A stretch of 64,000 nucleotides of DNA from Micromonospora sp. CP22 (GTDB lineage: Bacteria; Actinomycetota; Actinomycetes; Mycobacteriales; Micromonosporaceae): assembly GCF_009712475.1 (NCBI RefSeq), contig NZ_VCJO01000007.1:62001-126000 (forward strand), given 5' to 3'. Shown here piece by piece: positions 3,185 to 42,812 of this stretch; position 1 is the stretch's first letter; the number at the start of each line of letters is the position of its first letter. The notes under the pieces were generated by a model. That model did no database searches. It was given only the letters and a program-made list of their open reading frames with translations, and was not told where the DNA came from. Both the position numbers and the translations under genes were made by a program.

Positions 3185-3241
3185 TGATCAAGAAGTTTGC
3201 GTCGTCCCGGGTCGCGAAAGCAGACGCAAACTTCTTGATCA
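3185..3241. repeat. GATCAAGAAGTTT inverted repeat, copy 1
   Basis: Arms 3185-3203 and 3223-3241 are perfectly complementary over 19 bp (TGATCAAGAAGTTTGCGTC) with a 19-nt loop. The outer 13 bases are shared with copies at 29198, 33586 and 42753, while the inner bases GCGTC are specific to this copy and matched in both arms. The right arm contains the TGA stop codon of the minus-strand TetR gene, so it can act as that gene's terminator. Confidence 0.9.
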
Positions 3242-3823
3242 CCGGGACGAGGGGTGGGGACGGAAGAGGTCTTTGCTGAGCAGGTGTTCGCGGTGGTCCT
3301 GGGCCTCGGGGCGCAGGCGGCCGCCCCGGGTGAGCATCACCAGGCCGTGCAGCACGCTCCAACCCAGCTCGGCGAGGGTGTCGACGTCACGGCCGGCGGC
3401 CAGGGGTGTCAGCGCGGAGCGTAGTTCCCCGAAGGTGGCCGCCACCGTCTCGGGAACCTGCTCCGCGCCGAGGGTCAGCTCCGGCGTGTGAGAGAACATC
3501 GCGTCATAGACCTCGGGGTTCGCGTACGCGAAATCGAGGTAGGCGGCCATCACCGCCGGCCAGACCTCGGTCGGCCGGTCCACCGACGTCCGTGCGGCGG
3601 TCAGCGTGGCGGCCAGGTCGGCGAAGCCCCGGACCGCGACGGCGGCGACCACCGCCTCCCGGTCGGCGAAGCGCTGGTAGAGGGCACCGAGGTCGACGGC
3701 GGCCCGTTCGGCGAGCCGGCGGGTGGTCACCGCCGCCAGGCCCTCGGCCTCGGCCAGCTGCCAGGCGGTGGCCACGATCGCGTCGCCGTCCCGCCCGGTG
3801 TCTGGTTCGTCTGCTCCGGACAC
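3239..3823 (-). CDS. TetR family transcriptional regulator
   Basis: A 194-residue regulator. Residues 12-58 form the TetR DNA-binding domain (ATAWQLAEAEGLAAVTTRRLAE...LGALYQRFADREAVVAAV). The C-terminal part, with LRSALTPLA and ELGWSVLHGLVMLTRGGRL, resembles the WHG/TetR_C_33 ligand-binding domain. It starts at GTG 3823 with a TAGCAT -10 box 7 nt upstream and no ribosome site, so the message is probably leaderless. The stop codon lies inside the right arm of a long inverted repeat. The neighbouring GH63 enzyme faces the same way, with a 74-bp gap. No target can be assigned, and autoregulation is only a guess. Confidence 0.85.
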   Translation of the reverse strand: MSGADEPDTGRDGDAIVATAWQLAEAEGLAAVTTRRLAERAAVDLGALYQRFADREAVVAAVAVRGFADLAATLTAARTSVDRPTEVWPAVMAAYLDFAYANPEVYDAMFSHTPELTLGAEQVPETVAATFGELRSALTPLAAGRDVDTLAELGWSVLHGLVMLTRGGRLRPEAQDHREHLLSKDLFRPHPSSR

Positions 3824-3830
3824 GTCGCCG

Positions 3831-3836
3831 ATGCTA
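3831..3836 (-). promoter_or_regulatory. -10 box for leaderless TetR gene
   Basis: TAGCAT on the minus strand, 7 nt before the GTG start at 3823. With a start site about 7 nt downstream of the box, transcription would begin at or next to the initiation codon. Confidence 0.55.
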
Positions 3837-3897
3837 GCCCCACCTCACTCAGGGTCATCGCGTCGCGACGGATTGGCGACTGAAGGCGGATACCGGG

Positions 3898-6600
<2,703 letters not shown>

Positions 6601-6641
6601 TGTCGTCGTGTCGTGTTACACCTCGCCGCGATGGAGGAAAG

Positions 6642-8576: not shown

Positions 8577-8716
8577 CGCTTTACACCCCCGCAACGGCTA
8601 CGTCTCCACCGGTTATCCAGCCGCGACCAGGATTGGTCCCGATCCAGCCGCAACGCGAAAGCCGCCTGTCAGGGGCCTGCTGCGGGGTGCGCGGAGACAA
8701 CTCAAAGGGGGCGCGT

Positions 8717-27354: not shown

Positions 27355-28104
27355 TCAGGCGGTTCGCCGGAGACGTCCGGCGTACCGCGACTCGAGGGCG
27401 AGGTTGTGCTCGTCCCCACCGGGGACGTTGGCGGAGAGGTAGACAGGGGGTACCTCTCCGGCCAGGTGGAACCGTCGGACGACCTCCGCGGTCAGCAGCT
27501 GCGCCAACAGCGCCGAGGTGACCGAGGAGACCGCACAGACCGCGCCGCCGCCCTCGAGCGGCAGCAGTGCGTCGCCGTACGGCGCGCCGTTGTCCAGCAC
27601 GACGTCGGCGAGATCGACGAGCCGCCGACCGGAGGGGTGCCGGGGCGCCACCCGTCCGGTGTGCTCGACCGAGGTGACCGCGATCAACGGGTGACCGCGC
27701 TCGATGGCCAGCAGGGCCAGTTCGACCACCGATCCGTTGATCCCGGACTGGGACGCCACCACGAAGACGTCCTGCGGCTGGGGAGCGGCGATCGCGTAGA
27801 GCTGATGCGCGACGGCCGGGTCGCGTTCCAGCTTGGGGTCGGCGAGCACCTGACGCGATGCCCCGCCGTGCAACACCAGGTCGGATAGGGAGATCCGGTT
27901 GGTGGGCACCAGCCCACCGGCGCGGGCGACCAACTCGGCGGCGAAGACCTCCGAGTGCCCGGCACCGAACGCCTGGAGCACCCCGCCGTCACGCAGGCTG
28001 GCGGCGATCAGGTCGGCGGCCCGCCCCAGCGGTTCGGTTCCCCGCTCGACCAGTCGGTCGAGCAGTGGCCGGACCGCGTCCGCGTACCCCTGGGCGCTGA
28101 TCAT
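27355..28104 (-). CDS. SIS-domain sugar isomerase (UPF0309-like)
   Basis: A 249-residue single SIS domain protein. The phosphosugar-binding loops are GVLQAFGAGHSEVFAAEL (about 39-56) and FVVASQSGINGSVVELALLA (about 111-130), followed by PLIAVTSVEHT. This subgroup (UPF0309) is found with NgcEFG in several actinomycetes and is assumed to act on phosphorylated amino sugars, though the reaction is not established. Its ATG overlaps the TGA of the RpiR gene (28101-28104), and NgcE follows after 27 bp, so all five genes are one operon. Confidence 0.86.
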   Translation of the reverse strand: MISAQGYADAVRPLLDRLVERGTEPLGRAADLIAASLRDGGVLQAFGAGHSEVFAAELVARAGGLVPTNRISLSDLVLHGGASRQVLADPKLERDPAVAHQLYAIAAPQPQDVFVVASQSGINGSVVELALLAIERGHPLIAVTSVEHTGRVAPRHPSGRRLVDLADVVLDNGAPYGDALLPLEGGGAVCAVSSVTSALLAQLLTAEVVRRFHLAGEVPPVYLSANVPGGDEHNLALESRYAGRLRRTA

Positions 28105-29063
28105 GCGTTGGCCTCCCGCGCGGCCTTGTGCCCGTCGACGGCCTGGGCGGTACGCCGGAAGGCCGCGTGGGCGCGGTCGTGGGTGCGTTGGGCGACGGCG
28201 ATGTAGAGCAGGTCGAGGACGACCAGCTGGGGGTGCCGGGCGGACAGCGCGTCCGGCCGGAAGGTGGTGGCCTGGCTGGCGGTGAGCAGCACGATGTCGG
28301 CCAGTTCGGCCAACGGGGAGCGGCGGAACCCGGTCAGCGCGATGGTGGTGGCGCCCCGGCTACCGCCCTCGGCGAGCATCTCGATGGCCTCGCGGGTCTG
28401 CCCGCTGTGCGAGATGCCCAAGGCCACGTCGCCGGGGTGCAGCAGCGCGGCGGCGGCCAGTCCTGAGTGCACGTCGTTCCAGGCCCACGCGGCCACGCCG
28501 ATGCGATGCAGGCTGAACTGCATCTCCTCGCCGACCAGCGCGCTTCCGCTGGCACCGAAGATGTTCACCCGTTCGGCCCCGGCGATCGCCACCGCGGCCC
28601 GCTCCACCTCGGCCAGGTCGAGCAGCGCGGCGGTGTCGTGCATGGCCCGGGTGTCGGCCGCGATGATCTGCTCCAGGACTCGTTCCAGCGGATCGTTGGG
28701 CTGGATCTCGCGTCCGATGTCGACCGTCCAACCGGCCGATCGGGCCCGGCCGGTCTCGGCGGCGATGCCCAGTCGCAGGTCGGCGTAGCCGTCGAAGCCC
28801 ATCGCCCGGCAGAACCGGGTGACCGTGGCCGGCGAGGTGCCGCTGCGCTCGGCCAGTTCCACGATGGTGGCACGGGCCGCCGCCTCCGGATCGCTGAGCA
28901 CATGCTCGGCGACCCGGCGCAGCGCGCCGGTCAGTTCGGCGGCACCGGTGCGGACCCGGGCCAGTGTCCCGTCGGAGGCGACGCCGAGGGCACCTCGCCG
29001 GTCGATCCCGTCGGCGTCGGTCGCCGCGGCGACCGCGGCGATGTCCGACTGGTGATCAACCAT
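28101..29063 (-). CDS. MurR/RpiR family transcriptional regulator
   Basis: A 320-residue regulator. The N-terminal HTH_6 domain covers about residues 35-110 (RVAEHVLSDPEAAARATIVELAERSGTSPATVTRFCRAMGF). The C-terminal SIS domain, with NIFGASGSALVGEEMQFSL and GISHSGQTREAIEMLAEGGSRG, binds a phosphosugar effector. RpiR regulators control adjacent sugar operons and dissociate on binding phosphosugar; here it is the first gene of the amino-sugar operon, so self-regulation of the whole unit is likely. ATG 29063 follows AAAGG. An AT-rich inverted repeat 31-53 bp upstream of the start is a candidate operator. Confidence 0.9.
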   Translation of the reverse strand: MVDHQSDIAAVAAATDADGIDRRGALGVASDGTLARVRTGAAELTGALRRVAEHVLSDPEAAARATIVELAERSGTSPATVTRFCRAMGFDGYADLRLGIAAETGRARSAGWTVDIGREIQPNDPLERVLEQIIAADTRAMHDTAALLDLAEVERAAVAIAGAERVNIFGASGSALVGEEMQFSLHRIGVAAWAWNDVHSGLAAAALLHPGDVALGISHSGQTREAIEMLAEGGSRGATTIALTGFRRSPLAELADIVLLTASQATTFRPDALSARHPQLVVLDLLYIAVAQRTHDRAHAAFRRTAQAVDGHKAAREANA

Positions 29064-29197: not shown

Positions 29198-29259
29198 GGT
29201 TGATCAAGAAGTTTTCGTCGTAGTTGATCTCCCTGACGACGAAAACTTCTTGATCAACC
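29198..29259. repeat. GATCAAGAAGTTT inverted repeat, copy 2
   Basis: A perfect 24-bp stem: 29198-29221 against 29236-29259 with a 14-nt loop. Outer arms carry GGTTGATCAAGAAGTTTT, the inner arms CGTCGT/ACGACG. The loop contains TTGATCTCCCTG, which copy 3 nearly repeats. Unlike the other copies it lies between divergent genes (RpiR and acyltransferase), so it cannot be the terminator of either. Confidence 0.92.
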
Positions 29260-29307: not shown

Positions 29308-30762
29308 ATGCGCCGCCTGGCCCGCCTCGCCGCCCGGACGCCGCCGGATCGGGAGCGCTACCTCGACCTACTCCGGGCGCTGGCCATCATCCTGGTGGTC
29401 CTCGGGCACTGGGCGATAGCGGCAGTCGAGTACGACGACAACGGCCGACCCGACGGGCACTCGGCACTGACCACCATCCCCTGGGCCTACCCGCTGACCT
29501 GGGCGGTCCAGGTCATGCCCGTCTTCTTCCTGGTCGGCGGGTACGCCAACGCCGCCTCGCTGGCCGCCCACCGACGCCGGGGCGGTGACGCGATCGGATG
29601 GCTGCTCGGCCGCAGCGCTCGCCTGCTGCGCCCGACCAGTGCCCTGGTGCTGGTGCTCGCCGGAGGCGCGCTGGTCGCCCGGCTGGCCGGCGCGCAGCCG
29701 GACGAGGTCCGCCCGATCGTCTGGTTCGCCACCATCCCGCTGTGGTTCCTCGCCGCCTACCTCGCCGTCCTGCCGCTGACCCCGGTCATGTACGCGCTGC
29801 ACCGCCGCCTCGGGCTGCTGGTGCCACTGGCGTTGACCCTGCTGGTCGCCGCCGGAGACCTGGGCCGCGCGCTCGGGCCCGCCGGGTTGGCCCTGCCCAA
29901 CTACCTGCTGGGTTGGCTCGCCGTCCACCAGGTCGGCTTCGCCTGGTACGACGCCCACCGGGGCCACTGCCACCCGGCCGGCCGACCCGCCACCGAGGTG
30001 TCGCGCACCGACGACGGCCACGCAGCCGTCGACGGCGATCCAGCACCGAACGACACCGGCCCGGCAACCGGCGTACGCACCCGGTGCCTGCCGATGTCCC
30101 GTCGTGCCGCGAGCCTCATGCTCCTCGGCGGTCTCGCCGTGGCGGCGCTGCTCACCGGCCCCGGCCCGTACCCGGTGAGCATGATCAATCTCCCTGGTCA
30201 GCGGCTGGCGAACGCCGCCCCGCCCAGCGTGGCCCTGCTCGCGGTCGCCACCGCCCAGCTCGGGCTCATCCTGCTGCTGCGGGAACCGGCACACCGGTGG
30301 CTACGCCGCTCCCGCCCCTGGCAGCTGGTGATCGGCGTCAACTCGGTCGTGCTGACGGTCTTCCTGTGGCACCTGAGCGCGGCCGTACTGCTGGTCGGCG
30401 CGTTGCACGGGCTCGGTCTGCTCCCCACCCCACAGGCCGGTACGGCCGCCTGGCTGGCCTGGCGCCTGCCCTGGGTGCTGATGTTGGCGGTGGTGCTGGC
30501 CGTGCTGGTCGCCATCTTCGGTCCGATCGAGGCGTCCACCAGCCGTCCCCGGCACCTCAGGTCACCGACCGGACGGGCGGGTGTTCGCGCCGTGCTCACC
30601 GTCGCCGGGTTCGCCGCCGTCGGGTACGCCCTGGTGGTCAACGCCACGACGGCCAAGACCGCACCCGAGCCGCTCGGCTGGCCGGTGCCCGCGCTGGTGG
30701 CGTACCTGGCCGGGGCGGGCACGCTACGCCTGCTCAGAGCCGGGTGGGGCAGCCGAGGGTGA
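29308..30762 (+). CDS. Membrane acyltransferase, acyltransferase-3 family
   Basis: A 484-residue polytopic protein with about ten transmembrane helices. The family start is RYLDLLRALAIILVVLGHWAI (residues 17-37), which contains the His essential in acyltransferase-3 enzymes (here H35), and GGYANAASLAAHR follows. A variable cytoplasmic loop around 225-260 (DGHAAVDGDPAPNDTG) separates two helix bundles. Members transfer acetyl or succinyl groups to sugars, peptidoglycan, exopolysaccharide or antibiotics. No partner glycan genes are adjacent. The substrate is unknown. The gene ends 27 bp before the convergent MurD2 gene. Confidence 0.87.
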   Translation: MRRLARLAARTPPDRERYLDLLRALAIILVVLGHWAIAAVEYDDNGRPDGHSALTTIPWAYPLTWAVQVMPVFFLVGGYANAASLAAHRRRGGDAIGWLLGRSARLLRPTSALVLVLAGGALVARLAGAQPDEVRPIVWFATIPLWFLAAYLAVLPLTPVMYALHRRLGLLVPLALTLLVAAGDLGRALGPAGLALPNYLLGWLAVHQVGFAWYDAHRGHCHPAGRPATEVSRTDDGHAAVDGDPAPNDTGPATGVRTRCLPMSRRAASLMLLGGLAVAALLTGPGPYPVSMINLPGQRLANAAPPSVALLAVATAQLGLILLLREPAHRWLRRSRPWQLVIGVNSVVLTVFLWHLSAAVLLVGALHGLGLLPTPQAGTAAWLAWRLPWVLMLAVVLAVLVAIFGPIEASTSRPRHLRSPTGRAGVRAVLTVAGFAAVGYALVVNATTAKTAPEPLGWPVPALVAYLAGAGTLRLLRAGWGSRG

Positions 30763-32222: not shown

Positions 32223-33590
32223 GTGCTCAACACGCAGCTGGCGCGGATGGACGCCTTCACCTTCTCGTCCTACTCGATCGACCTGTCCACCGGCGAGGCG
32301 CTGTTCGACTACGCCCTGACCGGGCCCGACGGCGAGCAGCGGTTCACCGAGGTGGTCACGTTCCCGGTGCCGGAGGAGTCCCCGTCGGACGCCGCCGTGG
32401 CGGCGCTGGGCCGGGTGTTGGAGCTGCTGCACGTGGTGGCCGGGGTCAGTTACTACAAGACGGCCGCGCCGGGTCAGCTGCTCCTGCCGGCACCGCTCGG
32501 CCCGGCCGCCGTCGAGTTCGTCACGGCCGTCTACACCAAGGGCCTCGCCGAGTACGCGTACCGCAACCGGCTGCCGTATGTGCTGGAGCTGGCCCCGCGC
32601 GTGCCCGAGGGACGGGTGAAGCCGGCCGCCGAGTACGACAACTCCGACCGACGCCCGCTGTCGGCGGTGGGGGGCGGCAAGGACTCGATCGTCAGTCTGG
32701 AGGCGCTGCGCCGGGCCGGTCTGGATCCGGTGCCCTTCTCGGTCAACCCGAACCACGTGATCAACGCGGTGAACGCGGCCTCCGGGCTCACTCCGCTGGC
32801 GGCCCGGCGGCGTATCGACCCGGTGCTGTTCGAGCTGAACGCGGCCGGCGCGCGCAACGGGCACATCCCGGTCACCGCGATCAACTCGCTGATCGCGGTC
32901 GCCACCGCCGTCCTGCACGGCCTGGGTCCGGTGGTGATGTCCAACGAACGCTCCGCCTCGGACCCGAACCTGATCTGGAACGGTCACGAGATCAACCACC
33001 AGTGGTCCAAGGGGGTGGCTGCCGAGGGGCTGCTGCGGGCGGCCCTTGCCGAGCACGCCGGGCTGGTCGAGCCGTACTTCTCGCTGCTGCGCCCGCTGTC
33101 GGAGCTGCACATCGCCCGACTGTTCGCCACCATCGACCGCTACGACGACGTGGTCACCAGCTGCAACGCCGCGTTCAAGCTCCGCGACGCCAGCGAGCGG
33201 TGGTGCCGCGACTGCCCCAAGTGCCGGTTCGTCTTCCTGGCGATGGCCCCGTTCATGCCCCGCGAGCGGATCAGCCGGATCTTCGGCGGCGACCTGCTCG
33301 CCGACGCGACGCAGATTCCGGGCTACCGCGAGTTGCTCGGCATCGACGGGCACAAGCCGTTCGAGTGCGTCGGCGAGGTGGAGGAGTCGGTGGTCGCGTT
33401 GAGCCTGCTCGCCCAGCAGCCGGAGTGGCGCGGCACCCCGGTGGTGACCGCCCTGGTCGCCGCCGTACCCGAGCAGGCGTGGTCGACCGCCGCAGCCTCC
33501 GACACCTTCACCCCCGCCGCCGCCAACCACCACATCCCCCCCGCCTACCAGAAGACCCTCCAAACCCTCACCCACCCCCAAGCGGGTTGA
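32223..33590 (+). CDS. murL: UDP-MurNAc-L-Ala-L-Glu epimerase, MurL-like
   Basis: A 455-residue protein with the features of MurL: SAVGGGKDSIVSLEALRRAGL (about residue 147-167) is the PP-loop-type ATP site, SVNPNHVINAVNAASGL follows, and WCRDCPKCRFVFLAMAPF (about 326-343) supplies a Cys cluster. MurL epimerises the terminal L-Glu of UDP-MurNAc-L-Ala-L-Glu in an ATP-dependent reaction, so D-Glu need not come from racemase MurI. The gene is divergent from murD2 and shares its promoter region. GTG 32223 lies 5 nt after TAGTAT. The stop codon TGA is inside the left arm of inverted repeat copy 3. Confidence 0.86.
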   Translation: MLNTQLARMDAFTFSSYSIDLSTGEALFDYALTGPDGEQRFTEVVTFPVPEESPSDAAVAALGRVLELLHVVAGVSYYKTAAPGQLLLPAPLGPAAVEFVTAVYTKGLAEYAYRNRLPYVLELAPRVPEGRVKPAAEYDNSDRRPLSAVGGGKDSIVSLEALRRAGLDPVPFSVNPNHVINAVNAASGLTPLAARRRIDPVLFELNAAGARNGHIPVTAINSLIAVATAVLHGLGPVVMSNERSASDPNLIWNGHEINHQWSKGVAAEGLLRAALAEHAGLVEPYFSLLRPLSELHIARLFATIDRYDDVVTSCNAAFKLRDASERWCRDCPKCRFVFLAMAPFMPRERISRIFGGDLLADATQIPGYRELLGIDGHKPFECVGEVEESVVALSLLAQQPEWRGTPVVTALVAAVPEQAWSTAAASDTFTPAAANHHIPPAYQKTLQTLTHPQAG

Positions 33591-33645
33591 TCAAGAAGTT
33601 TTGGTCATTTTCGATCTCCCTGATGACCAAAACTTCTTGATCAAC
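33586..33645. repeat. GATCAAGAAGTTT inverted repeat, copy 3
   Basis: A perfect 23-bp stem: 33586-33608 with 33623-33645, loop 14 nt. The outer arm is GTTGATCAAGAAGTTTT, the inner part GGTCAT/ATGACC. The loop TTTCGATCTCCCTG is close to that of copy 2. It lies between convergent murL and the PucR gene and supplies the murL stop codon (TGA 33588-33590), so it can terminate both. Confidence 0.92.
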
Positions 33646-33653
33646 ACGGCGGG

Positions 33654-35501
33654 TCAGGAGGTGCGGATGGCGTCTAGGGCTAGGAGGGCTACGTGGAGGG
33701 AGAGGCAGGCGTCGACCGAGTCGAGGTCGACGTTCAGGATCCGGCCGATGCGGGCCAACCGCTCGTAGAACGCCGGGCGGGACAGGTGCGCGGCGGATGC
33801 CGCGGCGGACTTGTTCCGGCCCTGCTCCAGGTAGGCCCGTAGGGTGCCGAGCAGTTGCTCCCGGGGGTGCTGCGCGTCGTACGTCAGCAGCGCCCCGAGT
33901 TGCCGCTCGACGAAGGTCTGCACCCGGGGCTCATCGCGCAACAGGTGCAGCAGTCCGGCCAGGCCGACGTGCGGCAGCCGGAAGATCGGCAGGTCACGCC
34001 GGTCCCGGCGGGCCGCGTCGGCGACCTGACGCGCCTCGATCAGCGACCGGCGGGCCTCCCGCAGACCGCCCACCCCGGATCCGGCGGCGATCAGCAGCCC
34101 GGGGCCGGGACGCCGACCCGGCGCGTCCTCGGTACGCCCCGACACCTCAGCGCGTCCGGCCAGTTCCGGGCGGGCGCGGCGCAGCGCGGCGGCGAAGGCG
34201 GACAACGCCCGTTCCTCGGTCGCGGCGTCGGGCAGGGCGAGCAGCACACCCACCGTCTGGTCGTCCAGGGCGCTGGTGAGCCCGGTCAGCCCGGCCTCGC
34301 GCAGCGCCTGTCCGACGGCCTCGGCGAGGTCGCGCAGCCAGGTGGGCCCGGCGTCCGGTACGTGGTCGGCCGCGTCGCCCGGATGCCCCGGCTCCCCTCC
34401 GGCCGCGTCCACCCGGTGGCGGACCACCAGCCCGACGAGATGACGGCGCTCCAGCGCCACCCCGAGCGCCCGCGCCCGCAGGGCCACCTCGTCCACCGGC
34501 CAGGAGTGGTCGAGCAGGGCGGTGAGCAGGGTCCGGTGGAGTTGGCGTTCCAACCCCTCGGCGTCCCGACGGATCAGCCGACCGAGGGCCAGCGTGGACG
34601 CCGCCCGCTCCACCAGGATGGTCAGCCTGGTCGGCGGTGCCGAGGGCGAGCCGCCACGCCCGGCCGGGGTCGACACGTCCCGCCGGGTGGCCGGCACCGG
34701 GGCGGGCCGCCCGCTGTCCGGCACCGGCGGGGGCCCACCGGCCAGGTGACCGCCGGGCGGCCAGCGCAACAGCAGCCGACCCCAGTCCTGTCCCCGCGCA
34801 CCCACCATGGTGACCAGCCACCCTCGGTCCGCGTCGTACGCCGTACGCCCGTCGGCCCGGATTCGCCGTGAGTGCTGCTCCCAGCCGTCGAGCAGCAACT
34901 CGGCGTTCTCCCCCACCGGGTCGTAGGCGAGCACCTGGCGGGACAGGTTCTCCAACACCACCGGGCAGCCGGACAGCTCGGCCGCCTGCCGGACCACCTC
35001 GCCGGGTTCGGCTCCCTCCACCGACAGCTCGGTGAACCGCTGGTGGATCTCCTCGGTGGCCCGCAGCTCGGTGAGCTGGGCGTCCACGATCAGGGCGTGC
35101 ACCGCCTCGGTGACCCGCACGAACGGGGTGGCCCGGCGCAGCTCCACCAACGGCAGGCCGTGGCGTTCGGCGGCGGCCACCATCACCCGGGGTACGCCGT
35201 CGAGATAGCGCCGACCCAACTCGACCACCAGCCCGGAGACGCCGACGCCGGCCAGGTCCCCGATGAAGGCCCGCAGCCCGGCGTCGTCGCCGGGCAGCCC
35301 GATACCGGTGGTGAGCACCAACTCGCCGCCGCCGAGCAGGGTGGCGATGTCCGGCACCTCGGCGACGTGCACCCACCGCACCCGACGGTCCAGCCCGACC
35401 TCCCCGGCGACCAGGCGCGGCGCGCCGTGGCGGACCGGGTCCAGGGCGAGGACCTCACGCACGGTAGGGAACACTCGCGACACGCTACCGCCCGTGACCA
35501 C
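33654..35501 (-). CDS. PucR family transcriptional regulator
   Basis: A 615-residue regulator. Residues 10-135 are a PucR N-terminal domain (FPTVREVLALDPVRHGAPRLVAGEVGLDRRVRWVHVAEVPDIATLL and GGELVLTTGIGLPGD). The middle part is a GGDEF-like/CdaR region with a Pro-rich insertion around 235-270. The C-terminus carries HTH_30 (about 548-608: LLGTLRAYLEQGRNKSAAASAAHLSRPAFYERLARIGRIL). PucR relatives regulate purine or amino-acid catabolism. No such genes stand next to it here. GTG 35501 is the first start; another GTG five codons on is possible. Neither has a good ribosome site. Confidence 0.88.
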   Translation of the reverse strand: MVTGGSVSRVFPTVREVLALDPVRHGAPRLVAGEVGLDRRVRWVHVAEVPDIATLLGGGELVLTTGIGLPGDDAGLRAFIGDLAGVGVSGLVVELGRRYLDGVPRVMVAAAERHGLPLVELRRATPFVRVTEAVHALIVDAQLTELRATEEIHQRFTELSVEGAEPGEVVRQAAELSGCPVVLENLSRQVLAYDPVGENAELLLDGWEQHSRRIRADGRTAYDADRGWLVTMVGARGQDWGRLLLRWPPGGHLAGGPPPVPDSGRPAPVPATRRDVSTPAGRGGSPSAPPTRLTILVERAASTLALGRLIRRDAEGLERQLHRTLLTALLDHSWPVDEVALRARALGVALERRHLVGLVVRHRVDAAGGEPGHPGDAADHVPDAGPTWLRDLAEAVGQALREAGLTGLTSALDDQTVGVLLALPDAATEERALSAFAAALRRARPELAGRAEVSGRTEDAPGRRPGPGLLIAAGSGVGGLREARRSLIEARQVADAARRDRRDLPIFRLPHVGLAGLLHLLRDEPRVQTFVERQLGALLTYDAQHPREQLLGTLRAYLEQGRNKSAAASAAHLSRPAFYERLARIGRILNVDLDSVDACLSLHVALLALDAIRTS

Positions 35502-36407: not shown

Positions 36408-36413
36408 ATTCTG
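36408..36413 (-). promoter_or_regulatory. -10 box for leaderless SpoU gene
   Basis: CAGAAT on the minus strand, 6 nt before GTG 36401, matching all but one of the TANNNT positions. Confidence 0.4.
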
Positions 36414-36539
36414 CCGGACCCCGCCACGCCGGACGCCGCAGGTGCCCCGGTACGCCGACCGGCACGGAACCAGCAGGCCGACCGGCAGCGGGGCCAGCAG
36501 GTCGGCGGGCCAGCGACGCGCGGCGGGTTCGCCGGGCGG

Positions 36540-37240: not shown

Positions 37241-37255
37241 GTAGTGACTTGCATG

Positions 37256-37546
37256 TCAAGCCGACTCACCGAAGGTGATCCAGCGCGGCGGGACGTGGTC
37301 GATGAGCCAGACACCGTTGACGGCCCGGTAGAAGACGAACCCGTGCCGGTGCATGCCCGTCGCGTCCACGGTCAGCACCACCGGGTCACCCCGGCGCGCG
37401 CCGACCGTGGCGGCGGTCTCCCGGTCCACCGACAGGTGGACGTGGACACGACCGCGTGGCCGCAGCCCGTCGGCACGGATGCCAGGCAGGTTGCGGGCCA
37501 CCGTGCCGTGGTAGAGCAGCGACGGCGGCACGACATCGAACGCCAT
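37256..37546 (-). CDS. kptA: RNA 2'-phosphotransferase (KptA-like), ART domain only
   Basis: A 96-residue protein matching the C-terminal ADP-ribosyltransferase-like lobe of Tpt1/KptA: LLYHGTVARNLPGIRADGL, RGRVHVHLSVDRETA, TVGARRGDPVVLTVDATGM. Full KptA is about 180 residues, with an N-terminal winged-helix lobe containing the catalytic Arg-His pair. That lobe is absent, and the same frame upstream reads a stretch of unrelated Ala/Arg-rich sequence. Known KptA removes a 2'-phosphate from RNA onto NAD+. This may be a truncated gene, or a stand-alone ART-fold protein with another job, such as NAD-dependent modification. ATG 37546 has no clear ribosome site. Confidence 0.65.
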   Translation of the reverse strand: MAFDVVPPSLLYHGTVARNLPGIRADGLRPRGRVHVHLSVDRETAATVGARRGDPVVLTVDATGMHRHGFVFYRAVNGVWLIDHVPPRWITFGESA

Positions 37547-37623
37547 GTCGTCGCCACGCTGCGCGCCGGGAGCCCGACCAGCCGCGCACCGCAGCGCTGA
37601 CGCACCGGGCCGCGCGGGCGCCG

Positions 37624-37657
37624 CCGTGGCGGTGCCACCCGCGTGGCACCGCCACGG
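37624..37657 (-). terminator. 15-bp terminator after the NB-ARC gene
   Basis: CCGTGGCGGTGCCAC (37624-37638) pairs perfectly with GTGGCACCGCCACGG (37643-37657) over a 4-nt loop. It lies just after the stop codon of the minus-strand XRE/NB-ARC/TPR gene and separates it from the KptA fragment. Confidence 0.75.
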
Positions 37658-37660
37658 TGC

Positions 37661-39922
37661 TCAGGGCGGCGACAGCCGCGCCACCGCTTGGTGGGCGTGC
37701 TCGGCGGCCGGGTCACCGAGATCGTCCAGGAGTTGCGCGGCCCGTTGCCACGCGTCGACGGCGCGGGTGATGTCGCTCATCGCCTCCCGTACCTCACCGA
37801 GCCGCTGAAGGGTCTCGGCCTCGTGGTACCGGTCCGCGGACTCCCGGAACAGCGCGATGGCCTCCTCGTAGCACTCGGCCGCCCGATCGTGCTCGCCCAG
37901 GCGGCCGTGGGCGAAGCCCAGGCTGTCCAGCGTCGCCGCCTGGCCGTTGCGGTCACCGCTGGCACGCTGGCGGGCCAGCGCCGCCGAGCAGCTCTCGATA
38001 GCCCGTGGATAGTCGCCCGTGGCGGCGTAGAGCCAGCCGACCGCGTTCATCGCCCGAGCCTCTCCGGCGCTGTTGCCGGCCGACCGGTACAACCGCAACG
38101 CCTCCTGCACGTGCCGGAGCCCCTCCTCGGGCCGCCCCCGCATGTAGCAGACCTCGGCGTAGTTGTGCAGCGTCAGCGCCTGGCCGGTCGGGTCGTCCAG
38201 TCGCCGGTGCAGGTCCAGGGCGCGCAGCAGTCGTCTCTCGGCCACGTCGAGGTCACCGAGGCGGGTCTCCGCGCGGGACAGCAACCGGTTGGCCACAGCC
38301 TGTCCGGCCAGGTCGTCGATGCGTTCCGCCGCGGCGAGCGCGACCTGCTGGACGGCGAGCTGATCCCGCCAGAGGCCGTGCGGCGCGAAGAAGGTGGTCA
38401 ACGCCCAGGCCAGCTGCCAGGCGTACGCCTCGAAGCCGGTCTCCGCGGCCTGGCGCACCGCCCGCAGCAGCACCTGACCCTCCGCCGCGAACCAGCTCAG
38501 CGCCGCGTCGTGGTTCTCCGCCGGGGACCTGACGTTCGACGGCAGCGCGGGAATCGGGTCGATCGCCGGCCACTGCGGCTGGAGCAGCAGCGCCGCCGGG
38601 TAGGAGCTGTGCAGGTAGTAGTCGAACAGCCGGCGGCGCGCCTCCCGCGACTCCTCGGCCTCCCCGGCGGTGCGGGTCAGTTCGGCCGCGTACGCGCGCA
38701 GCAGGTCGTGGAAGGCGTACCGGCCGGGCAGGTGTTCGGTGAGCAGGTGCAGCCGGGTCAGCTCCCGCAACGGCGCGGTGATGGTCGCCGGGGTCTCCCC
38801 CGCCAGCGCCGCCGCGACCTCGGCGGTCAGGTCGGGCCCGGGGTGCAACCCCAACAGCCGGAACAGCCGCGCCGCCGGTCGACTCAACGCCAGGTAGGAC
38901 CAGGAGAAGACGGCGCGGACGTCGCCGTCGGCCAACGCGTCCAGCATCGCCTCGTCGGGGCGCAGGCTGGCGGCGAAGGCGTCGAGCGGGAAGCTGGGAT
39001 GCAGCGCCATCCGTGCCGCCACGATCGACAGCGCCAGCGGCAGCCGCCCCGTCGAGTCGATGATGTCCGCCGTGGCGGCCGGTTCGGCGGCCAGCCGACA
39101 GGCACCGAGCCGACTGGCGAGCAGACTCATCGACTCGTCGCTGGTGAGCACGTTGAGCCGGATCGGGTGCGCTCCCTCCGCGGCGATCAGCCCGGACAGC
39201 TCGTCCCGGCTGGTCACCACGACCATGCAACCGCCGGCACCGGGCAGCAGCGGTCGCACCTGCGCCGAGTCGCGCGCGTTGTCGAGCACCAGCAGCATCC
39301 GACGACCGGCCAGGAGGCTGCGGTGCAGCCCGATGCGGGCCTCCAGACCGGCCGGTATCCCGGCGGCCGGCACGCCGAGCGCCTCCAGGAAGCCCCGGAG
39401 GGCGTCGCTGGGATCGACGACGTCGGCCTCGTCGTAGCCGCGGAGGTTGACGTAGAGCTGGCCCTCGGGAAACCAGCCGGACGCCCGGTGCGCCCAGTGC
39501 AGGGCGAGGGCGGTCTTACCGACCCCGGCCATGCCGGAGATGGTGAAGATCGCGACCGTCGGCTGTGTCGACGCCTCCGTCGGCCGTCCGGCGTCGAGGG
39601 TCGCCAGCTCGGCGCAGCGGCCGACGAAGCCGGGCGCGGCCAGCGGCAGTTGCTGGGGCCGCTCTCCCTCCGGCCCGGCCAGGTCGGGGTCGGCGGCGTG
39701 GATGAAGTGGACCCGGTCGGCGGCGGACAGGTTGAACGCCTCGGCGAGCAACCGGACCGTCGACTTGCGCGGCCGGGCCACGCGTCCGTTCTCCACGTCC
39801 CGGATGCTGCGTACGGCGAGGCCGGTGGCGGCCGCGACGTCCTCCTGGGTCAACCCGAGCCGCCGCCGGTGGGCGGTCACCATCTGACTAAACCGGGCCA
39901 TACCCATCCACTCATGGCCCAC
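37661..39922 (-). CDS. XRE-HTH / NB-ARC / TPR regulator (STAND ATPase)
   Basis: A 753-residue multidomain regulator. Residues 8-65 are an XRE helix-turn-helix (MVTAHRRRLGLTQEDVAAATGLAVRSIRDVENGR). An NB-ARC ATPase follows with Walker A GMAGVGKT (130-137), Walker B MLLVLDNA (about 213) and the GLPL-like GRLPLALSIVA. The C-terminal half carries tetratricopeptide repeats. STAND proteins act as ATP-dependent switches; this actinobacterial layout resembles the SARP-linked regulators without the SARP domain. No target is evident. GTG 39922 has TACTCA six nt upstream. Other ATGs at 39907 and 39901 are possible starts. Confidence 0.88.
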   Translation of the reverse strand: MGHEWMGMARFSQMVTAHRRRLGLTQEDVAAATGLAVRSIRDVENGRVARPRKSTVRLLAEAFNLSAADRVHFIHAADPDLAGPEGERPQQLPLAAPGFVGRCAELATLDAGRPTEASTQPTVAIFTISGMAGVGKTALALHWAHRASGWFPEGQLYVNLRGYDEADVVDPSDALRGFLEALGVPAAGIPAGLEARIGLHRSLLAGRRMLLVLDNARDSAQVRPLLPGAGGCMVVVTSRDELSGLIAAEGAHPIRLNVLTSDESMSLLASRLGACRLAAEPAATADIIDSTGRLPLALSIVAARMALHPSFPLDAFAASLRPDEAMLDALADGDVRAVFSWSYLALSRPAARLFRLLGLHPGPDLTAEVAAALAGETPATITAPLRELTRLHLLTEHLPGRYAFHDLLRAYAAELTRTAGEAEESREARRRLFDYYLHSSYPAALLLQPQWPAIDPIPALPSNVRSPAENHDAALSWFAAEGQVLLRAVRQAAETGFEAYAWQLAWALTTFFAPHGLWRDQLAVQQVALAAAERIDDLAGQAVANRLLSRAETRLGDLDVAERRLLRALDLHRRLDDPTGQALTLHNYAEVCYMRGRPEEGLRHVQEALRLYRSAGNSAGEARAMNAVGWLYAATGDYPRAIESCSAALARQRASGDRNGQAATLDSLGFAHGRLGEHDRAAECYEEAIALFRESADRYHEAETLQRLGEVREAMSDITRAVDAWQRAAQLLDDLGDPAAEHAHQAVARLSPP

Positions 39923-39929
39923 CGGGTCT

Positions 39930-40070
39930 GAGTAGACCGGCCAGCCCCTCGACGGGAAAAGGATGTCCGGTGATGTTTTCTACTGGATGGAGATCCCCTT
40001 GTCGAGCGGAGGCCCGACGGCCGGGACTGCGGTCGGCCGGGCCAGTGGCGGTGGGTGTCCCGGTCTACTC
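39930..40070. promoter_or_regulatory. Spaced 11-bp inverted repeat between the NB-ARC and GRDP-like genes
   Basis: GAGTAGACCGG (39930-39940) and its exact complement CCGGTCTACTC (40060-40070) are 119 bp apart. The left arm lies over the presumed -10 region of the NB-ARC gene, the right arm over the 3' end of the GRDP-like gene (its TAG stop is inside). A looped operator is possible, as is chance. Confidence 0.3.
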
Positions 40071-40541
40071 CATAAAGTCGTAGATGTACTCACCGAATTC
40101 GGCGTGGTACCGATCCTGGGTCTGCTGCCAAGCGTTCGACAGATTCGTACGGTCGACCGGCCCACCCGTACCGACATAGGGAAGGTGGTGCAGGTAGTAG
40201 CCGAAAATCCGGTCACAGTGGGCGAAGTACGCGTACGTGTCGAGGATGTGGCCGTGCCAGAACTCGTCGATGTCGATGTGCGGCGGCAGCAGCTCCCCTT
40301 CGTACCTGCGTCGCAGGTACAGCCAGTTCTTGTAGAGCCGTTCGTAGTAGTCCGCCCGGGCCGGGCTCCACGCACCGCCCAGCATGTCGCGTCCCTGGGT
40401 GAGTCGGTGCTTGAGCGGTCCGAAGTCGATGGCGTCGATGTAGCGCCGCACCTCGGCGAGGTCGGTGATCCGGTTGGTCGAGGTGTTGGGGGGAACGTCC
40501 CAGCGGAGTTCCTCAGCGGGCCTGACGACGGTTTCGGTCAT
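40065..40541 (-). CDS. GRDP-like (glycine-rich domain-containing protein-like) protein
   Basis: A 158-residue protein. The N-terminal half (DLAEVRRYIDAIDFGPLKHRLTQG) is helical. The centre carries DIDEFWHGHILDTYAYFAHCDRIFGYYLHHLPYVG, written here as the motif WHGHILDTYAYFAHC followed by FGYYLHHLPY. This is the hallmark of the GRDP/PF07173-type family, in which conserved His, Asp and Cys could bind a metal. The biochemical role is unknown. It is preceded on the same strand by a 13-bp hairpin and, beyond that, by a possible 15-residue Cys-rich peptide, which is the layout of a small-peptide/modifying-protein pair. ATG 40541 has only a weak ribosome site. Confidence 0.7.
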   Translation of the reverse strand: MTETVVRPAEELRWDVPPNTSTNRITDLAEVRRYIDAIDFGPLKHRLTQGRDMLGGAWSPARADYYERLYKNWLYLRRRYEGELLPPHIDIDEFWHGHILDTYAYFAHCDRIFGYYLHHLPYVGTGGPVDRTNLSNAWQQTQDRYHAEFGEYIYDFME

Positions 40542-40580
40542 ATCGCGTCCAATCTCGCTCGGTCGACTGGAGTTCGCGGT

Positions 40581-40613
40581 GGTGGTCCGGGCGGGATCGC
40601 CGCCCGGACCACC
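40581..40613. terminator. 13-bp hairpin upstream of the GRDP-like gene
   Basis: GGTGGTCCGGGCG (40581-40593) pairs perfectly with CGCCCGGACCACC (40601-40613) around a 7-nt loop. On the minus strand it lies between the small peptide frame (stop at 40682) and the GRDP-like start at 40541, so it could act as a partial terminator or attenuator or stabilise an upstream transcript. Confidence 0.6.
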
Positions 40614-40681
40614 GGGTTCACGTCAGGCGGCCTGATCGCCGCGCATCACCCCGCTGCGGGAGGGTCCCGTTGACAAAATCG

Positions 40682-40729
40682 TCACCCGCAGCACTTGCCC
40701 AGAACGCTATTTCCACGCTGAAGGGTCAT
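40682..40729 (-). CDS. Possible 15-residue Cys-rich peptide
   Basis: The minus strand from ATG 40729 reads MTLQRGNSVLGKCCG and stops at 40682. It is short, ends in Cys-Cys-Gly, lies in a patch of lower GC, and is followed by a hairpin and then the GRDP-like gene, which is the arrangement of a RiPP precursor gene and its partner. There is no good Shine-Dalgarno, and the sequence matches nothing I know. It may well be noise. Confidence 0.2.
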   Translation of the reverse strand: MTLQRGNSVLGKCCG

Positions 40730-40737
40730 CCAGGAGA

Positions 40738-40759
40738 TTGACCGGCAGTTGACCGGCAG
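40738..40759. promoter_or_regulatory. Tandem 11-bp direct repeat TTGACCGGCAG
   Basis: TTGACCGGCAG occurs twice end to end (40738-40748, 40749-40759), one helical turn apart. It lies between the divergent GRDP/peptide unit and the TPP enzyme, in the position of an activator or repressor site serving either direction. Confidence 0.45.
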
Positions 40760-40811
40760 GAAGCTGCCGCCGGCACCGTGCGCGGCGCGTTTCGCCGGGT
40801 GGAGACGGGGA

Positions 40812-40877
40812 ATGTCGCGGCACTCTCGTCCGAGAGCGGTGTTTGAGGAGGCCCGGCCGGAAAGGCGATCCAGGTGA
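40812..40877 (+). CDS. 21-codon upstream ORF coupled to the TPP enzyme
   Basis: ATG 40812, preceded by GGAGACGGGGA, reads MSRHSRPRAVFEEARPERRSR and ends at TGA 40875-40877, which overlaps the GTG of the TPP enzyme (GTGA 40874-40877). Arg makes up a third of it. It is either a regulatory leader coupling translation into the enzyme gene or simply an open frame over the leader. Its good ribosome site and exact stop/start overlap favour the first. Confidence 0.4.
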   Translation: MSRHSRPRAVFEEARPERRSR

Positions 40878-42730
40878 GCACAGAGCACATCGGCACCTTC
40901 GTGCCGGAGGACCCGTGGCCGCTGCCCCGTGACGCCACCGTCGCGGACCACATGGTGCAACGTCTCGCCTGCTGGGGCGTACGCCGCTACTTCGGCTTCC
41001 CCGGCGACGGCATCAACGGGATGACCTCGGCCTTGCAACGCACCGCCGAGAAGGTGCAGTTCGTCCAGGTACGCCACGAGGAGACCGCCGGGTTCGCCGC
41101 CTCGGCACACGTCAAGTACGGCGGCGGACCACTCGGCGCGGTGCTGGTCACCAGCGGCCCGGGTGCCATCCACGCGCTCAACGGTCTCTACGACGCGAAG
41201 CTGGATCACCAACCGGTGGTCGCCCTGGTCGGGCACACCGCGCTCACCGCCGAGGGCGGCGGCTACTACCAGGAGGTGGACCTGCTCGCCCTCTACAAGG
41301 ACGTGGCGGCGGCGTTCCTGGCCCAGCTCGACCACCCGTCCCAGGTACGCCACCTGGTGGATCGGGCGTGCCGGACCGCGTTGGCCCGGCGTACCGTCAC
41401 CGCCCTGGTGTTGCCGCTCGACGTGCAGGACCTGCCGGCGGTGCCCAACCCGCCGCACGCGCACGGCTTCTTCCACACCAGCAGCGTGCCGAGCAGCGGC
41501 CCGACGGTGCCGCCGGAGGCGGACATCCGGCACGCCGCCGAGGTGCTCGGCAGCGGCGAGCGGGTGGCCATGCTGGTCGGGCAGGGTGCGCTCGGCGCGG
41601 AGAACGAGGTACACGAGATCGCCCACCGCCTCGGCGCGGGCGTGGCGACCGCACTGCTCGGCTTCACCGCCGTGGACCACCGGGAGCCGTGGGTGACCGG
41701 TGCCATCGGTCTGCTCGGCACCCGCCCCAGCTGGCAGCTGATGAACGAGTGCGACCGGCTGCTCATCGTCGGCAGCAACATGCCGTACTCGGAGTTCTAC
41801 CCGCCGCCCGGGCAGGCGCGGGCGGTGCAGATCGACCACGACGGCACCCAACTGGGACTGCGCTACCCGACCGAGGTGAACCTGACCGGTGACGCCGCGC
41901 CCACCCTGCGGGCGCTGCTGGCCGCGCTCGGCCCCGGCCCGGGACCGACCCGGTGGCGACAGACCATCGCCGGGGCCACCGCCGCGTGGCGGCAGTCGCA
42001 GCGGGAACTGGCCGAGCAGAACGCCGACCCGGTCAACCCGCAGCTGCTCTTCGCCCGCCTCAGCGACCGCCTGCCCGACGACGTGATGCTCGCCGTCGAC
42101 TGCGGCACCACCACCGCCTGGTACGCCCGGCACCTCAAGGTCCGCCCGGGGATGCTGGCCAGTCTGTCCGGCACCCTGCTGTCCATGGGCGGCGCGATGC
42201 CGTACGCCCTGGCGGCCAAGTTCGCCCACCCGCAGCGCCCGCTGGTGGCCCTGATCGGCGACGGTGCGATGCAGATGAACGGGGTCAACGAGCTGATCAC
42301 CGTGGCGAAGTACTGGCAGAGCTGGGCCGACCCACGGTTCGTGGTGCTGGTGCTCAACAACCGCGATCTGGCGTTCGTCAGCTGGGAGCAACGCTCCACC
42401 GAGGGCACCCCGATGTTCCCGGACAGCCAGCAGTTGCCCGACATCGCGTACCACCGGTGGGGTGAGGTGCTGGGGATGCGCGGCGAGCTGGTCGACCACC
42501 CGGACCAGGTGGCCGACGTGTGGGACCGGGCGCTGAACGCCGACCGCCCCACGGTGATCAACGCGCTGGTCGACCCCGCCGAGCTGATGATGCCGCCACA
42601 CTTCACCGCCGAGCAGGCCCGCAAGACGGCCGCCGCCGTGCTGCGCGGTGACACCGACTGGGCCGGCATCATCCGCCGCGGCATTCCCACCGTCATGACC
42701 ACCTACCGCCCCCGCCCCTCCTCCCGCTGA
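40874..42730 (+). CDS. TPP-dependent enzyme, pyruvate oxidase/acetolactate synthase-like
   Basis: A 618-residue ThDP enzyme with three domains. The N-terminal PYR domain carries VRHEETAGFAA with the catalytic Glu (about residue 67). The central domain is a Rossmann-like fold. The C-terminal PP domain has the ThDP motif GDGAMQMNGVNELITVAKYW (about 460-480) ending in VLNNRDLAF. Overall it is closest to PoxB-like pyruvate dehydrogenase (quinone) and related decarboxylases. Neither a FAD- nor a quinone-specific feature can be confirmed. The substrate is presumably a 2-oxo acid. GTG 40874 overlaps the stop of a 21-codon upstream ORF, suggesting translational coupling. The gene ends before inverted repeat copy 4. 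Confidence 0.87.
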   Translation: MSTEHIGTFVPEDPWPLPRDATVADHMVQRLACWGVRRYFGFPGDGINGMTSALQRTAEKVQFVQVRHEETAGFAASAHVKYGGGPLGAVLVTSGPGAIHALNGLYDAKLDHQPVVALVGHTALTAEGGGYYQEVDLLALYKDVAAAFLAQLDHPSQVRHLVDRACRTALARRTVTALVLPLDVQDLPAVPNPPHAHGFFHTSSVPSSGPTVPPEADIRHAAEVLGSGERVAMLVGQGALGAENEVHEIAHRLGAGVATALLGFTAVDHREPWVTGAIGLLGTRPSWQLMNECDRLLIVGSNMPYSEFYPPPGQARAVQIDHDGTQLGLRYPTEVNLTGDAAPTLRALLAALGPGPGPTRWRQTIAGATAAWRQSQRELAEQNADPVNPQLLFARLSDRLPDDVMLAVDCGTTTAWYARHLKVRPGMLASLSGTLLSMGGAMPYALAAKFAHPQRPLVALIGDGAMQMNGVNELITVAKYWQSWADPRFVVLVLNNRDLAFVSWEQRSTEGTPMFPDSQQLPDIAYHRWGEVLGMRGELVDHPDQVADVWDRALNADRPTVINALVDPAELMMPPHFTAEQARKTAAAVLRGDTDWAGIIRRGIPTVMTTYRPRPSSR

Positions 42731-42752
42731 CCGCCGCCCACCATCCCTTCGT

Positions 42753-42812
42753 GTTGATCAAGAAGTTTTGGTCGGCTGAGGCCCCATTCATGACCAAAAC
42801 TTCTTGATCAAC
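42753..42812. repeat. GATCAAGAAGTTT inverted repeat, copy 4
   Basis: A perfect 21-bp stem: 42753-42773 against 42792-42812, loop 18 nt. The arm GTTGATCAAGAAGTTTTGGTC shares its inner GGTC with copy 3, but the loop (GGCTGAGGCCCCATTC...) is unrelated. It lies 22 bp after the TPP enzyme stop and 38 bp before the end of the convergent PBP gene, in a position to terminate both. Confidence 0.92.

Follow-up and report, generated by a model that had tools for sequence, protein, structure and literature searches.

The palindromic repeat present in four copies in the window (the whole stretch of 64,000 nucleotides of Micromonospora sp. CP22 analysed here) belongs to a large and apparently undescribed palindrome family of Micromonospora and related bacteria, whose members probably mark gene ends on both strands and whose units seem to be swapped whole while their places stay unchanged. 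From sequence comparison, and with moderate confidence, we interpret it as a palindromic element dispersed over gene ends in the Micromonosporaceae, a putative bidirectional transcription boundary or terminator that would spread by copying and be replaced in place. The original prediction of a four-copy family of long inverted repeats is confirmed as an observation, and its interpretation is partly supported.

Architecture of the unit

All four copies lie where they had been placed, with small offsets (Table 1). The outer arm said to be common to them, TTGATCAAGAAGTTT, is found at 3184, 29200, 33587 and 42754, with its reverse complement adjoining in three copies; in copy 1 the right arm reads GTGATCA, one base off. 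The inner arms are as described, and the loop word GATCTCCCTG occurs in two copies (at 29226 and 33613). The statement that the inner arms of a copy always match holds for these four and fails for the family: of 100 copies, 63 have the same three inner letters behind TTGATCAAGAAGTT on either arm (35 expected from shuffling; highest of 2000 shuffles, 50).

Table 1. Copies of the element in the window and the genes beside them (gene coordinates and settings from our own simple gene caller)
Feature	Positions	Strand	Description
Copy 1	3183..3243	no strand	61 bp; arms: left GTTGATCAAGAAGTTTGCGTC, right read inward GGTGATCAAGAAGTTTGCGTC
TetR-type regulator gene	3239..3823	-	stop codon is the TGA in the right arm of copy 1
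RpiR-type SIS-domain regulator gene	28101..29063	-	left neighbour of copy 2
Copy 2	29199..29258	no strand	60 bp; inner arm TTTTCGTCGT; divergent genes on either side, an unusual place
Acyltransferase-family protein gene	29308..30762	+	right neighbour of copy 2
455-aa protein gene	32223..33590	+	no Pfam match at E 0.001; stop codon is the TGA of copy 3
Copy 3	33586..33645	no strand	60 bp; inner arm TTTTGGTCAT; convergent genes on either side
PucR-type regulator gene	33654..35474	-	convergent neighbour of copy 3
TPP-dependent enzyme gene	40874..42730	+	upstream neighbour of copy 4
Copy 4 left flanking tract	42731..42752	+	C-rich, as the left flanks of the family
Copy 4	42753..42812	no strand	60 bp; inner arm TTTTGGTC; between convergent TPP-dependent enzyme and transglycosylase/transpeptidase genes
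Copy 4 right flanking tract	42813..42850	+	G-rich, as the right flanks of the family
Transglycosylase/transpeptidase (penicillin-binding protein) gene	42851..45091	-	convergent neighbour of copy 4

The unit consists of a 21-bp arm, a variable loop of 18–19 nt and a second 21-bp arm, begins with GTTGATC and is 60 or 61 bp long in 231 of 239 copies. The arm consensus is GTTGATCA[A/T]GAAGTTNNNGTC, and base-specific conservation across stems follows the pattern GATCA-G--GTT---G. As RNA, the four window copies have folding energies between −31.9 and −35.2 kcal/mol, with z-scores from −7.1 to −10.4, and for each of them none of 200 shuffles folds as well. The window holds no Rfam match above gathering score; a terminator scan missed copies 2–4, which carries little weight since its loops were limited to 3–8.

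Tracts rich in C and G accompany the unit. Left flanks, for which copies had to lie 20 bp or more behind a gene, have C 0.60–0.61 and G 0.17–0.20, and right flanks have G 0.59–0.60 and C 0.16–0.18, whether the genes are convergent or tandem; where a tandem copy is far from the next start, the values are 0.60/0.20 (left) and 0.58/0.17 (right). The corresponding values in element-free gaps (119 tandem, 14 convergent; bins of at least 320 letters) are C 0.30–0.43 and G 0.33–0.41. In-register pairing of the two tracts is not above shuffling (362/876 versus 357; 571/1368 versus 561), and the G-rich 3' flank, with T 0.12–0.16, holds no U-tract.

Abundance and distribution

Had there been only these four copies, the original prediction would have been refuted, but the genome has about 51. 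A half-site search of the whole genome allowing at most one mismatch gives 42 + 39 matches, versus 0 + 0 for the reversed control, and just 1 of these 81 half-sites is unpaired, inside a gene (lists compared by eye, 13 doubtful matches by script). A covariance model was built from alignment A1, whose diverse-arm copies were gathered with a consensus-based finder, so that A1 leans towards pairing, and was run on Micromonospora genomes and a sample of the Micromonosporaceae. Of the 160 genus genomes it matches 158, as the expectation of a genus-wide repeat required, and it also reaches 21 of the 44 genera in the family sample, some with a single palindrome; at most 34–36 candidates were scored per genome, counting both strands, and 139 of the 160 genus genomes reach that number. 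Since 8 of the 11 genus genomes of 5.1–5.9 Mb have only 0–5 model matches, and two larger ones have 6 and 8, the element is dispensable. Carriage by phages or plasmids was rejected, with no exact-pattern match in viral contigs and no match to copy 3 in plasmids.

Arm sequences fall into dialects, and 23 of the 37 genomes with at least 10 exact half-sites use one dialect for at least 90% of them (hand count). One dialect is over-represented among loci L031–L130, which were collected by the exact outer-arm pattern (at least 100 loci).

Position at gene ends

A set of 101 sequences holds 118 copies, of which 60 have convergent, 41 tandem and 3 divergent genes on either side, with 4 inside gene calls and 10 at sequence ends; the intergenic length available in the same sequences (gaps of at least 40 bp) amounts to 16.4 kb between convergent, 49.3 kb between tandem and 37.3 kb between divergent genes. 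The distance from stop codon to element is 4–57 bp in 115 of 161 cases. A further 16 of the 161 distances (14 of 101 copies) are −5, where the element's own TGA is the stop, and in CP22 itself this TGA ends the gene at 14 of 48 copies. At the copy 3 site, where the TGA ends the 455-aa gene, nearly all relatives that were read carry their own stop codon ahead of the element's place. The element is thus placed as a terminator would be, just behind stop codons and enriched between convergent genes, and it occupies only part of all gene ends.

Covariation and dialect switching at the purA site

The element occupies the site behind purA at 47 of 52 loci scored, or in 45 of 50 genomes, which were not drawn at random: the sample of 54 loci, from 52 of the 160 matched genomes, comprised the best 30 matches, 20 hand-picked loci and 4 that had been noticed before. 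Two loci, L159 and L161, were left out of the scoring for want of a purA end, and the element is nevertheless present at L159. Alignment A2 of the stems (44 genomes) omits three of the 47 elements, two from duplicate genomes and one of 52 bp. In it 95.7% of cells are paired, with 116 two-sided changes versus 41.5 after shuffling and a covariation of 0.341 versus 0.124 shuffled and at most 0.091 slid; the A2 finder accepted arms with 12 or more matches out of 21, and A2, like A1, leans towards pairing. Two-sided stem changes thus go beyond the controls, as expected of a structured RNA family, in alignments that both have this leaning.

Variable stem positions (9, 11, 12, 16–18 and 20) mostly keep their complementarity between species and, as judged by eye, between genera. 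On a short tree of 550 columns, whose resolution is weak (of 46 inner branches, 6 are starred and 19 open), dialects switch repeatedly at this one orthologous site. The two-sided change within a single site bears out the original prediction that the repeat is selected or copied as a palindrome, and answers the objection that inner arms might not covary across many copies.

A putative two-way transcription boundary

In the proposed mechanism, RNA polymerase arriving from either side would first transcribe a stretch rich in C and poor in G, on which Rho could load, followed by the 21-bp hairpin and then G-rich RNA, and would end or pause at the element, leaving the message with the hairpin as its protected 3' end. 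Since the element would serve both strands alike, antisense reading from the neighbour would be blocked as well. New copies would come from copying of whole units, and residents would be replaced in place by other dialects. By eye, species lacking the element at the copy 4 orthologous site often have another inverted repeat there, which fits a need for a hairpin at that place. In support, sections of PMC8269248 report many hairpin ends lacking U in Streptomyces and cite a protective hairpin at Rho-dependent ends.

Several observations count against a terminator. The loop of 18/19 nt is oddly constant and lies above the usual 4–8 nt given in the same sections of PMC8269248, copy 2 sits between divergent genes, and the hairpin is not followed by the T run of an intrinsic terminator. 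The element's dispensability and its occurrence at only part of the gene ends count against it too. The suggested family of RNA hairpins did not gain from wobble pairing: on the sense strand of 141 tandem copies G-U is no commoner than A-C (67 to 74), in a comparison of power not established and with too few control hairpins (9 to 5). The ratio is 28 to 19 at the purA site (p 0.24) and 31 to 45 and 21 to 16 in other sets, so that there is no direct sign of selection at the RNA level.

Copying, mobility and alternative explanations

Six copies of the CP22 genome have similar loops and unrelated flanks, and therefore whole units have been copied; among the loops of 48 copies, 11 pairs agree at 14 or more letters, where about 0.1 would be expected from shuffled loops. 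At the orthologous sites of copy 3, copy 4 and purA the element is present in some relatives and absent in others. The loop of copy 3 is inverted relative to that of its relatives (against G152, 16 of 18 letters match as reverse complement, 6 directly), and loop inversion is a possible product of hairpin-mediated copying. These observations, together with the lack of an RNA wobble bias, would also suit a selfish, REP- or MITE-like palindrome moved by a transposase in trans, tolerated behind genes since promoters and coding regions exclude it, with its stem kept by arm-to-arm copying (template switching in the hairpin) and no selection on folding.

Such a selfish palindrome is a real but minor possibility. 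In the one transposase family tested, Y1 (RAYT-type, PF01797), the CP22 genome has no match, while the same search was positive in 5 of 14 control genomes; the associated RAYT-like transposase that was to be looked for was thus not found, and membership of the RAYT-mobilised REPs was rejected for this genome. Directly outside the 60-bp unit, identities in 96 copies number 13 of two bases (11.0 shuffled), none of three (1.6), one of four (0.7), one of five (0.1) and none longer; with the register one base further in, only four-base identities are in excess (10 versus 5.4). The terminal inverted repeats thus lack the clear target-site duplication of a MITE of a DDE transposon, and no longer autonomous relative was seen. 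A tolerated insert should moreover decay, whereas 45 of the 50 genomes scored have the element at the purA site, and the flanking tracts accompany the unit.

An insertion sequence ending in these arms was considered for half-sites about 1.1 kb apart and rejected: in five genomes two elements enclose an AbiEi-like gene, in the order purA, element, AbiEi-like gene, element, purD; a sixth region inspected (G000:C53) is a separate pair of elements flanking a gene. A general tie between the repeat and the AbiEi-like gene was likewise dropped, as the proteins called in 101 sequences include just two relatives, which apparently represent the same purA locus.

Alternatively, the place at the gene end may be what is selected, with the resident unit exchanged whole for other dialects or other palindrome families through a palindrome-homing process acting on the hairpin as DNA. 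This is rather unlikely; if true, the element would be a mobile one whose sites stay fixed while its sequence changes.

It is unlikely that the element is a double-stranded DNA site, where a protein dimer or tetramer on two 21-bp half-sites would form a roadblock, loop anchor or chromosome boundary at gene ends. The near-constant length with a free loop, the base-specific conservation, the symmetry on both strands and the dialects, as a co-evolving protein would give, are consistent with such a site; against it, free positions mostly remain complementary, which half-sites read independently would not need, and lone half-sites are practically unseen. A role in marking DNA for uptake or transfer, as the DNA uptake sequence does in Neisseriaceae, would account for species dialects, inverted pairs at gene ends and a TGA in one frame (as in all uptake dialects but one in the account of PMC3630211), but is very improbable given that half-sites in CP22 are practically never single or intragenic, whereas that account describes intragenic uptake sequences as common.

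Relation to known systems

REPs and REPINs with RAYT (Y1) transposases, as treated in parts of PMC2817692 and PMC3733652 (see also PMC3116915), are likewise short, multi-copy extragenic palindromes with subfamilies and compensated stems. The likeness to the REP type, which had been suggested, stops there: REPs are described in PMC3733652, in the sections concerned, with stems of 5–13 bp, mostly short loops and an unpaired GTAG/CGTC end tag, whereas our element has 21-bp stems without such a tag, an 18/19-nt loop of near-constant length, orthologous sites across the genus and a genome lacking the Y1 transposase. Actinobacterial high-GC gene ends, U-lacking (I-shaped) or Rho-type, share the strong transcript-end hairpin and the missing U-tract, but in those sections of PMC8269248 they have loops of 4–8 nt and are not presented as a repeated sequence family. 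Neisseriaceae DNA uptake sequences, according to the relevant part of PMC3630211, form stem-loops as inverted pairs associated with terminators, vary in dialect by species and contain a TGA. The element differs from them in that singles are practically absent from the CP22 genome, loop length is near-constant and the arms are 21 bp, and it is not known to act in uptake. Arms of the Neisseriaceae sequences are 10–12 bp.

Other palindromes occupy the same gene-end place at the copy 3 site (L258, L262–265, L267, L271, L277 and L286, with L267 a hybrid); their half-site GATC[A/T]TGCA resembles GATC--G-A-TT, but they are longer, with a longer loop (about 74 bp by eye). In a literature search with subscription journals mostly outside its scope, we found no description of the element or of the words TTGATCATGAAGTT and GATCAAGAAGTTT, and nothing on how Micromonosporaceae genes end.

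Significance

The Micromonosporaceae make many antibiotics, and gene-end palindromes found across the family would offer candidates for two-way terminators. They would also improve gene models where the stop codon is supplied by the repeat. An orthologous site with different, internally matched stems in close relatives is a natural experiment on concerted evolution, and thus the old question of whether extragenic palindromes are parasites or parts becomes directly testable.

The palindromic unit

The four palindromes of the original prediction are real and lie where it placed them, with unit lengths of 60 or 61 bp (see table). Folded as single-stranded RNA, they reach −31.9 to −35.2 kcal/mol (z −7.1 to −10.4). 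In the organism's own genome (5.85 Mb, 56 contigs), a 15-base half-site with at most one mismatch gave 81 matches, against 0 for the reversed control. Comparison of the half-site and model lists by eye, with 13 doubtful matches checked by script, left only one of the 81 unpaired, within a gene; the unit is therefore the pair. A covariance model built on 50 varied copies returned 102 matches at E 0.01; as each palindrome is matched on both strands, these amount to ∼51, of which the last few are weak. Length was 60 or 61 bp in 231 of 239 distinct copies from the fetched loci, although the finder permitted 52–72. Within the arm, GATCA, G at position 10, GTT at 13–15 and G at 19 are invariant or almost invariant, while positions 9, 11, 12, 16–18 and 20 vary; the loop of 18 or 19 nt differs in sequence from place to place.

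Palindromes of the window and features with coordinates in the fetched loci
Feature	Location	Setting	Description
Copy 1	3183–3243	convergent gap
Copy 2	29199–29258	divergent genes
Copy 3	33586–33645	convergent genes
Copy 4	42753–42812	convergent genes
Second palindrome	3065–3125	same gap, directly before copy 1	21-bp arms, 19-nt loop, GATCGTCTGCATTCCAGTGAC; built as copy 1, different sequence
AbiEi_4-domain gene	L133, 1139–2248	purA–purD interval	also in L131, L132, L134 and L135
Longer palindrome family	L073, from 5737

Position at gene ends

With genes called by our own gene caller, 118 copies (loci L031–L130 and the window) comprised 60 in convergent, 41 in tandem and 3 in divergent gaps, 4 inside genes and 10 at sequence ends, where the same sequences hold 16.4, 49.3 and 37.3 kb of convergent, tandem and divergent intergenic DNA, respectively. 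Of the 48 script-found copies of the own genome, 23 lie between tandem genes, 20 between convergent and 3 between divergent ones; 1 is inside a gene and 1 at a sequence end. Among 161 distances behind a stop codon, 115 were 4–57 bp, 28 were longer and 16 were exactly −5, the distance at which the element's own TGA is the gene's stop codon (14 of 101 copies; 14 of 48 in the own genome). One orthologue of copy 3 (locus L269) likewise has its gene stopping at the element's TGA, and by eye at least 27 of 29 relatives carry an own stop codon before this site. The AbiEi_4-domain gene between purA and purD, whose match to a restriction-endonuclease family is weak and falls below the cut-off, is bordered by palindromes on both sides, the TGA of the second being its stop in four of five loci.

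The element is preceded by a C-rich and followed by a G-rich tract, alike in convergent and tandem settings (left flank C 0.60–0.61, G 0.17–0.20; right flank G 0.59–0.60, C 0.16–0.18), with left flanks restricted to copies separated by 20 bp or more from the preceding gene (61 of 95 convergent, 95 of 154 tandem). The 87 tandem copies with the next start more than 60 bp away gave 0.60/0.20 (left C/G) and 0.58/0.17 (right G/C), and the flanks of five divergent copies follow the same pattern. The C-to-G flip was absent from element-free gaps (119 tandem, 14 convergent), and in-register pairing of the two tracts did not exceed chance.

Maintained pairing and the proposed function

The element lies behind purA in 47 of 52 scored loci and 45 of 50 genomes, a set that was not randomly drawn and leaves two further loci unscored. 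One purA site without it (L238, genome G246) carries an extra open frame of ∼1.2 kb on the opposite strand. In an alignment of 44 purA elements, picked by a finder that accepted a pair of arms only if 12 or more of the 21 positions matched, 95.7% of stem cells are paired, and 116 cells changed on both sides compared with 41.5 after shuffling. Covariation scored 0.341; shuffling gave 0.124, and sliding the partners no more than 0.091. The number of column pairs with two-sided change is less clear (10 versus 8.2 shuffled; 41 of 500 shuffles as high). Pairing is maintained at this one orthologous site.

Under selection on a sense RNA hairpin, tandem copies should carry more G-U pairs than A-C mismatches in the strand that is transcribed. 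No such excess was found in 141 tandem copies (67 versus 74; by set, purA 28 versus 19, p 0.24; mostly the gene after purA 31 versus 45; the rest 21 versus 16), with effective numbers smaller because the same mismatch recurs in related species. Convergent copies, the symmetric control, gave 14 versus 20, and ordinary imperfect hairpins behind tandem genes 9 versus 5, numbers too small to establish how powerful the test is. Within that limit, pairing is kept alike on both strands, and either the element acts in both directions, tandem settings included, or the arms are equalised by DNA-level copying.

We favour a two-way gene-end element, in which transcription from either side would yield C-rich RNA, then the hairpin, then G-rich RNA. 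Transcription would be ended at the element, probably with Rho, and the hairpin would be left as protection at the RNA 3′ end. Excerpts of PMC8269248 describe hairpin ends lacking U as common in Streptomyces clavuligerus and cite a protective stem-loop at Rho-dependent ends. The evidence directly establishes where the element lies, its symmetry, its occurrence at orthologous sites, its pairing and its copying, whereas termination, Rho and the copying enzyme are inferred. Rival explanations are a selfish palindrome that is merely tolerated and a protein site on double-stranded DNA.

Copying, inversion and replacement in place

Six own copies (29199, 33586 and those of loci L003, L014, L016 and L018) have similar loops, mostly with 13–16 letters in common, and unrelated flanks, and 11 loop pairs among the 48 own copies agree at 14 letters or more, against ∼0.1 for shuffled loops; whole units have therefore been copied, presumably by a copying enzyme. 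A further likely copy pair is formed by own copies L012 and L177, whose loops, in the orientation listed, are reverse complements of each other at 17 of 18 letters. Read as its reverse complement, the loop of copy 3 shares 16 of 18 letters with its G152 orthologue (L260), against 6 in direct reading; L261 gives 13/19 against 8, L268 14/18 against 7 and L259 11/17 against 6. Either the loop or the whole unit has thus been inverted at this site.

In a phylogeny of the purA DNA that flanks the element, the A and T dialects (the base at arm position 9) require 13 changes, scarcely below the value for shuffled labels (mean 14.7; 125 of 500 as low), and well supported branches force 3 of them. Resolution of the tree is weak, making 13 a soft number and 3 a firm one. 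Loci L138 and L242, a close pair on a starred branch, differ in dialect. These changes imply that stems were replaced in place several times. Read by eye, 30 loci at the copy 3 site, including our own, hold 6 A-dialect, 8 T-dialect, 1 hybrid and 9 longer relatives, the rest being 5 without hairpin and 1 cut by a contig end. The longer family, with half-sites GATCATGCAGTTGTGGC or GATCTTGCACTTTCGGTC, occupies this site in other species (L258, L262–265, L267, L271, L277 and L286); the palindrome of L267 has one arm of each type. Also by eye, 25 of 29 copy 4 orthologues were readable: a T-dialect-like unit is present in 8, 3 span at most 50 bp without a hairpin, and most others contain an inverted repeat of different sequence. 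A third family (GTAAGGAAGGGTCCCCTGCTAT and variants) is present there in three species (L217, L227, L230).

Given ∼51 copies in 5.85 Mb, it does not seem credible that the element was inserted independently, again and again, after one and the same gene in most species. We infer that the position is inherited and its occupant exchanged. Exact A-type half-sites occur in 76 and T-type in 81 of 160 genomes; by hand count, 23 of the 37 genomes with at least 10 are ≥90% one dialect and 14 are mixed. Where such a genome has a readable purA element, this carries the genome's commoner dialect in 17 of 20 cases (hand count), the purA site itself being counted among each genome's half-sites.

Known kinds and distribution

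The searched literature yielded no description of this palindrome family. REP elements are the closest likeness but, judging from excerpts of PMC2817692 and PMC3733652, their end tags and stem length are absent here, as is a Y1 (RAYT-type) transposase in the own genome. The nearest parallel in behaviour, in an excerpt of PMC3630211, is inverted uptake sequences with dialects, and an uptake signal is a further rival to the gene-end element. We file the family as a new variety of dispersed extragenic palindromes.

No copy was found in viral contigs with the exact pattern, or in plasmids searched with copy 3, and all 80 named loci among the matches listed are Micromonospora or Verrucosispora. In a family sample of 150 genomes, 62 matched at E 1e-4; they represent 21 of the 44 genera, Micromonospora among them, and some hold a single palindrome. 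From these, twelve genomes belonging to 11 other genera were chosen; at E 1e-7 each gave 6–142 matches, counted over both strands, in dialects including GATCATGAACCTATGGTC and GATCATGGACTTAGGGTC, with arms again complementary in those copies.

Within the genus, the model matched 158 of 160 genomes at E 1e-3. Eight of the 11 genomes of 5.1–5.9 Mb have 0–5 matches (G155, G169, G184, G206, G210, G214, G284 and G289), two of these none, and two larger genomes have 6 and 8. Set against the 139 of 160 with at least 34 matches, these eight constitute a natural experiment for the search for a trans factor.
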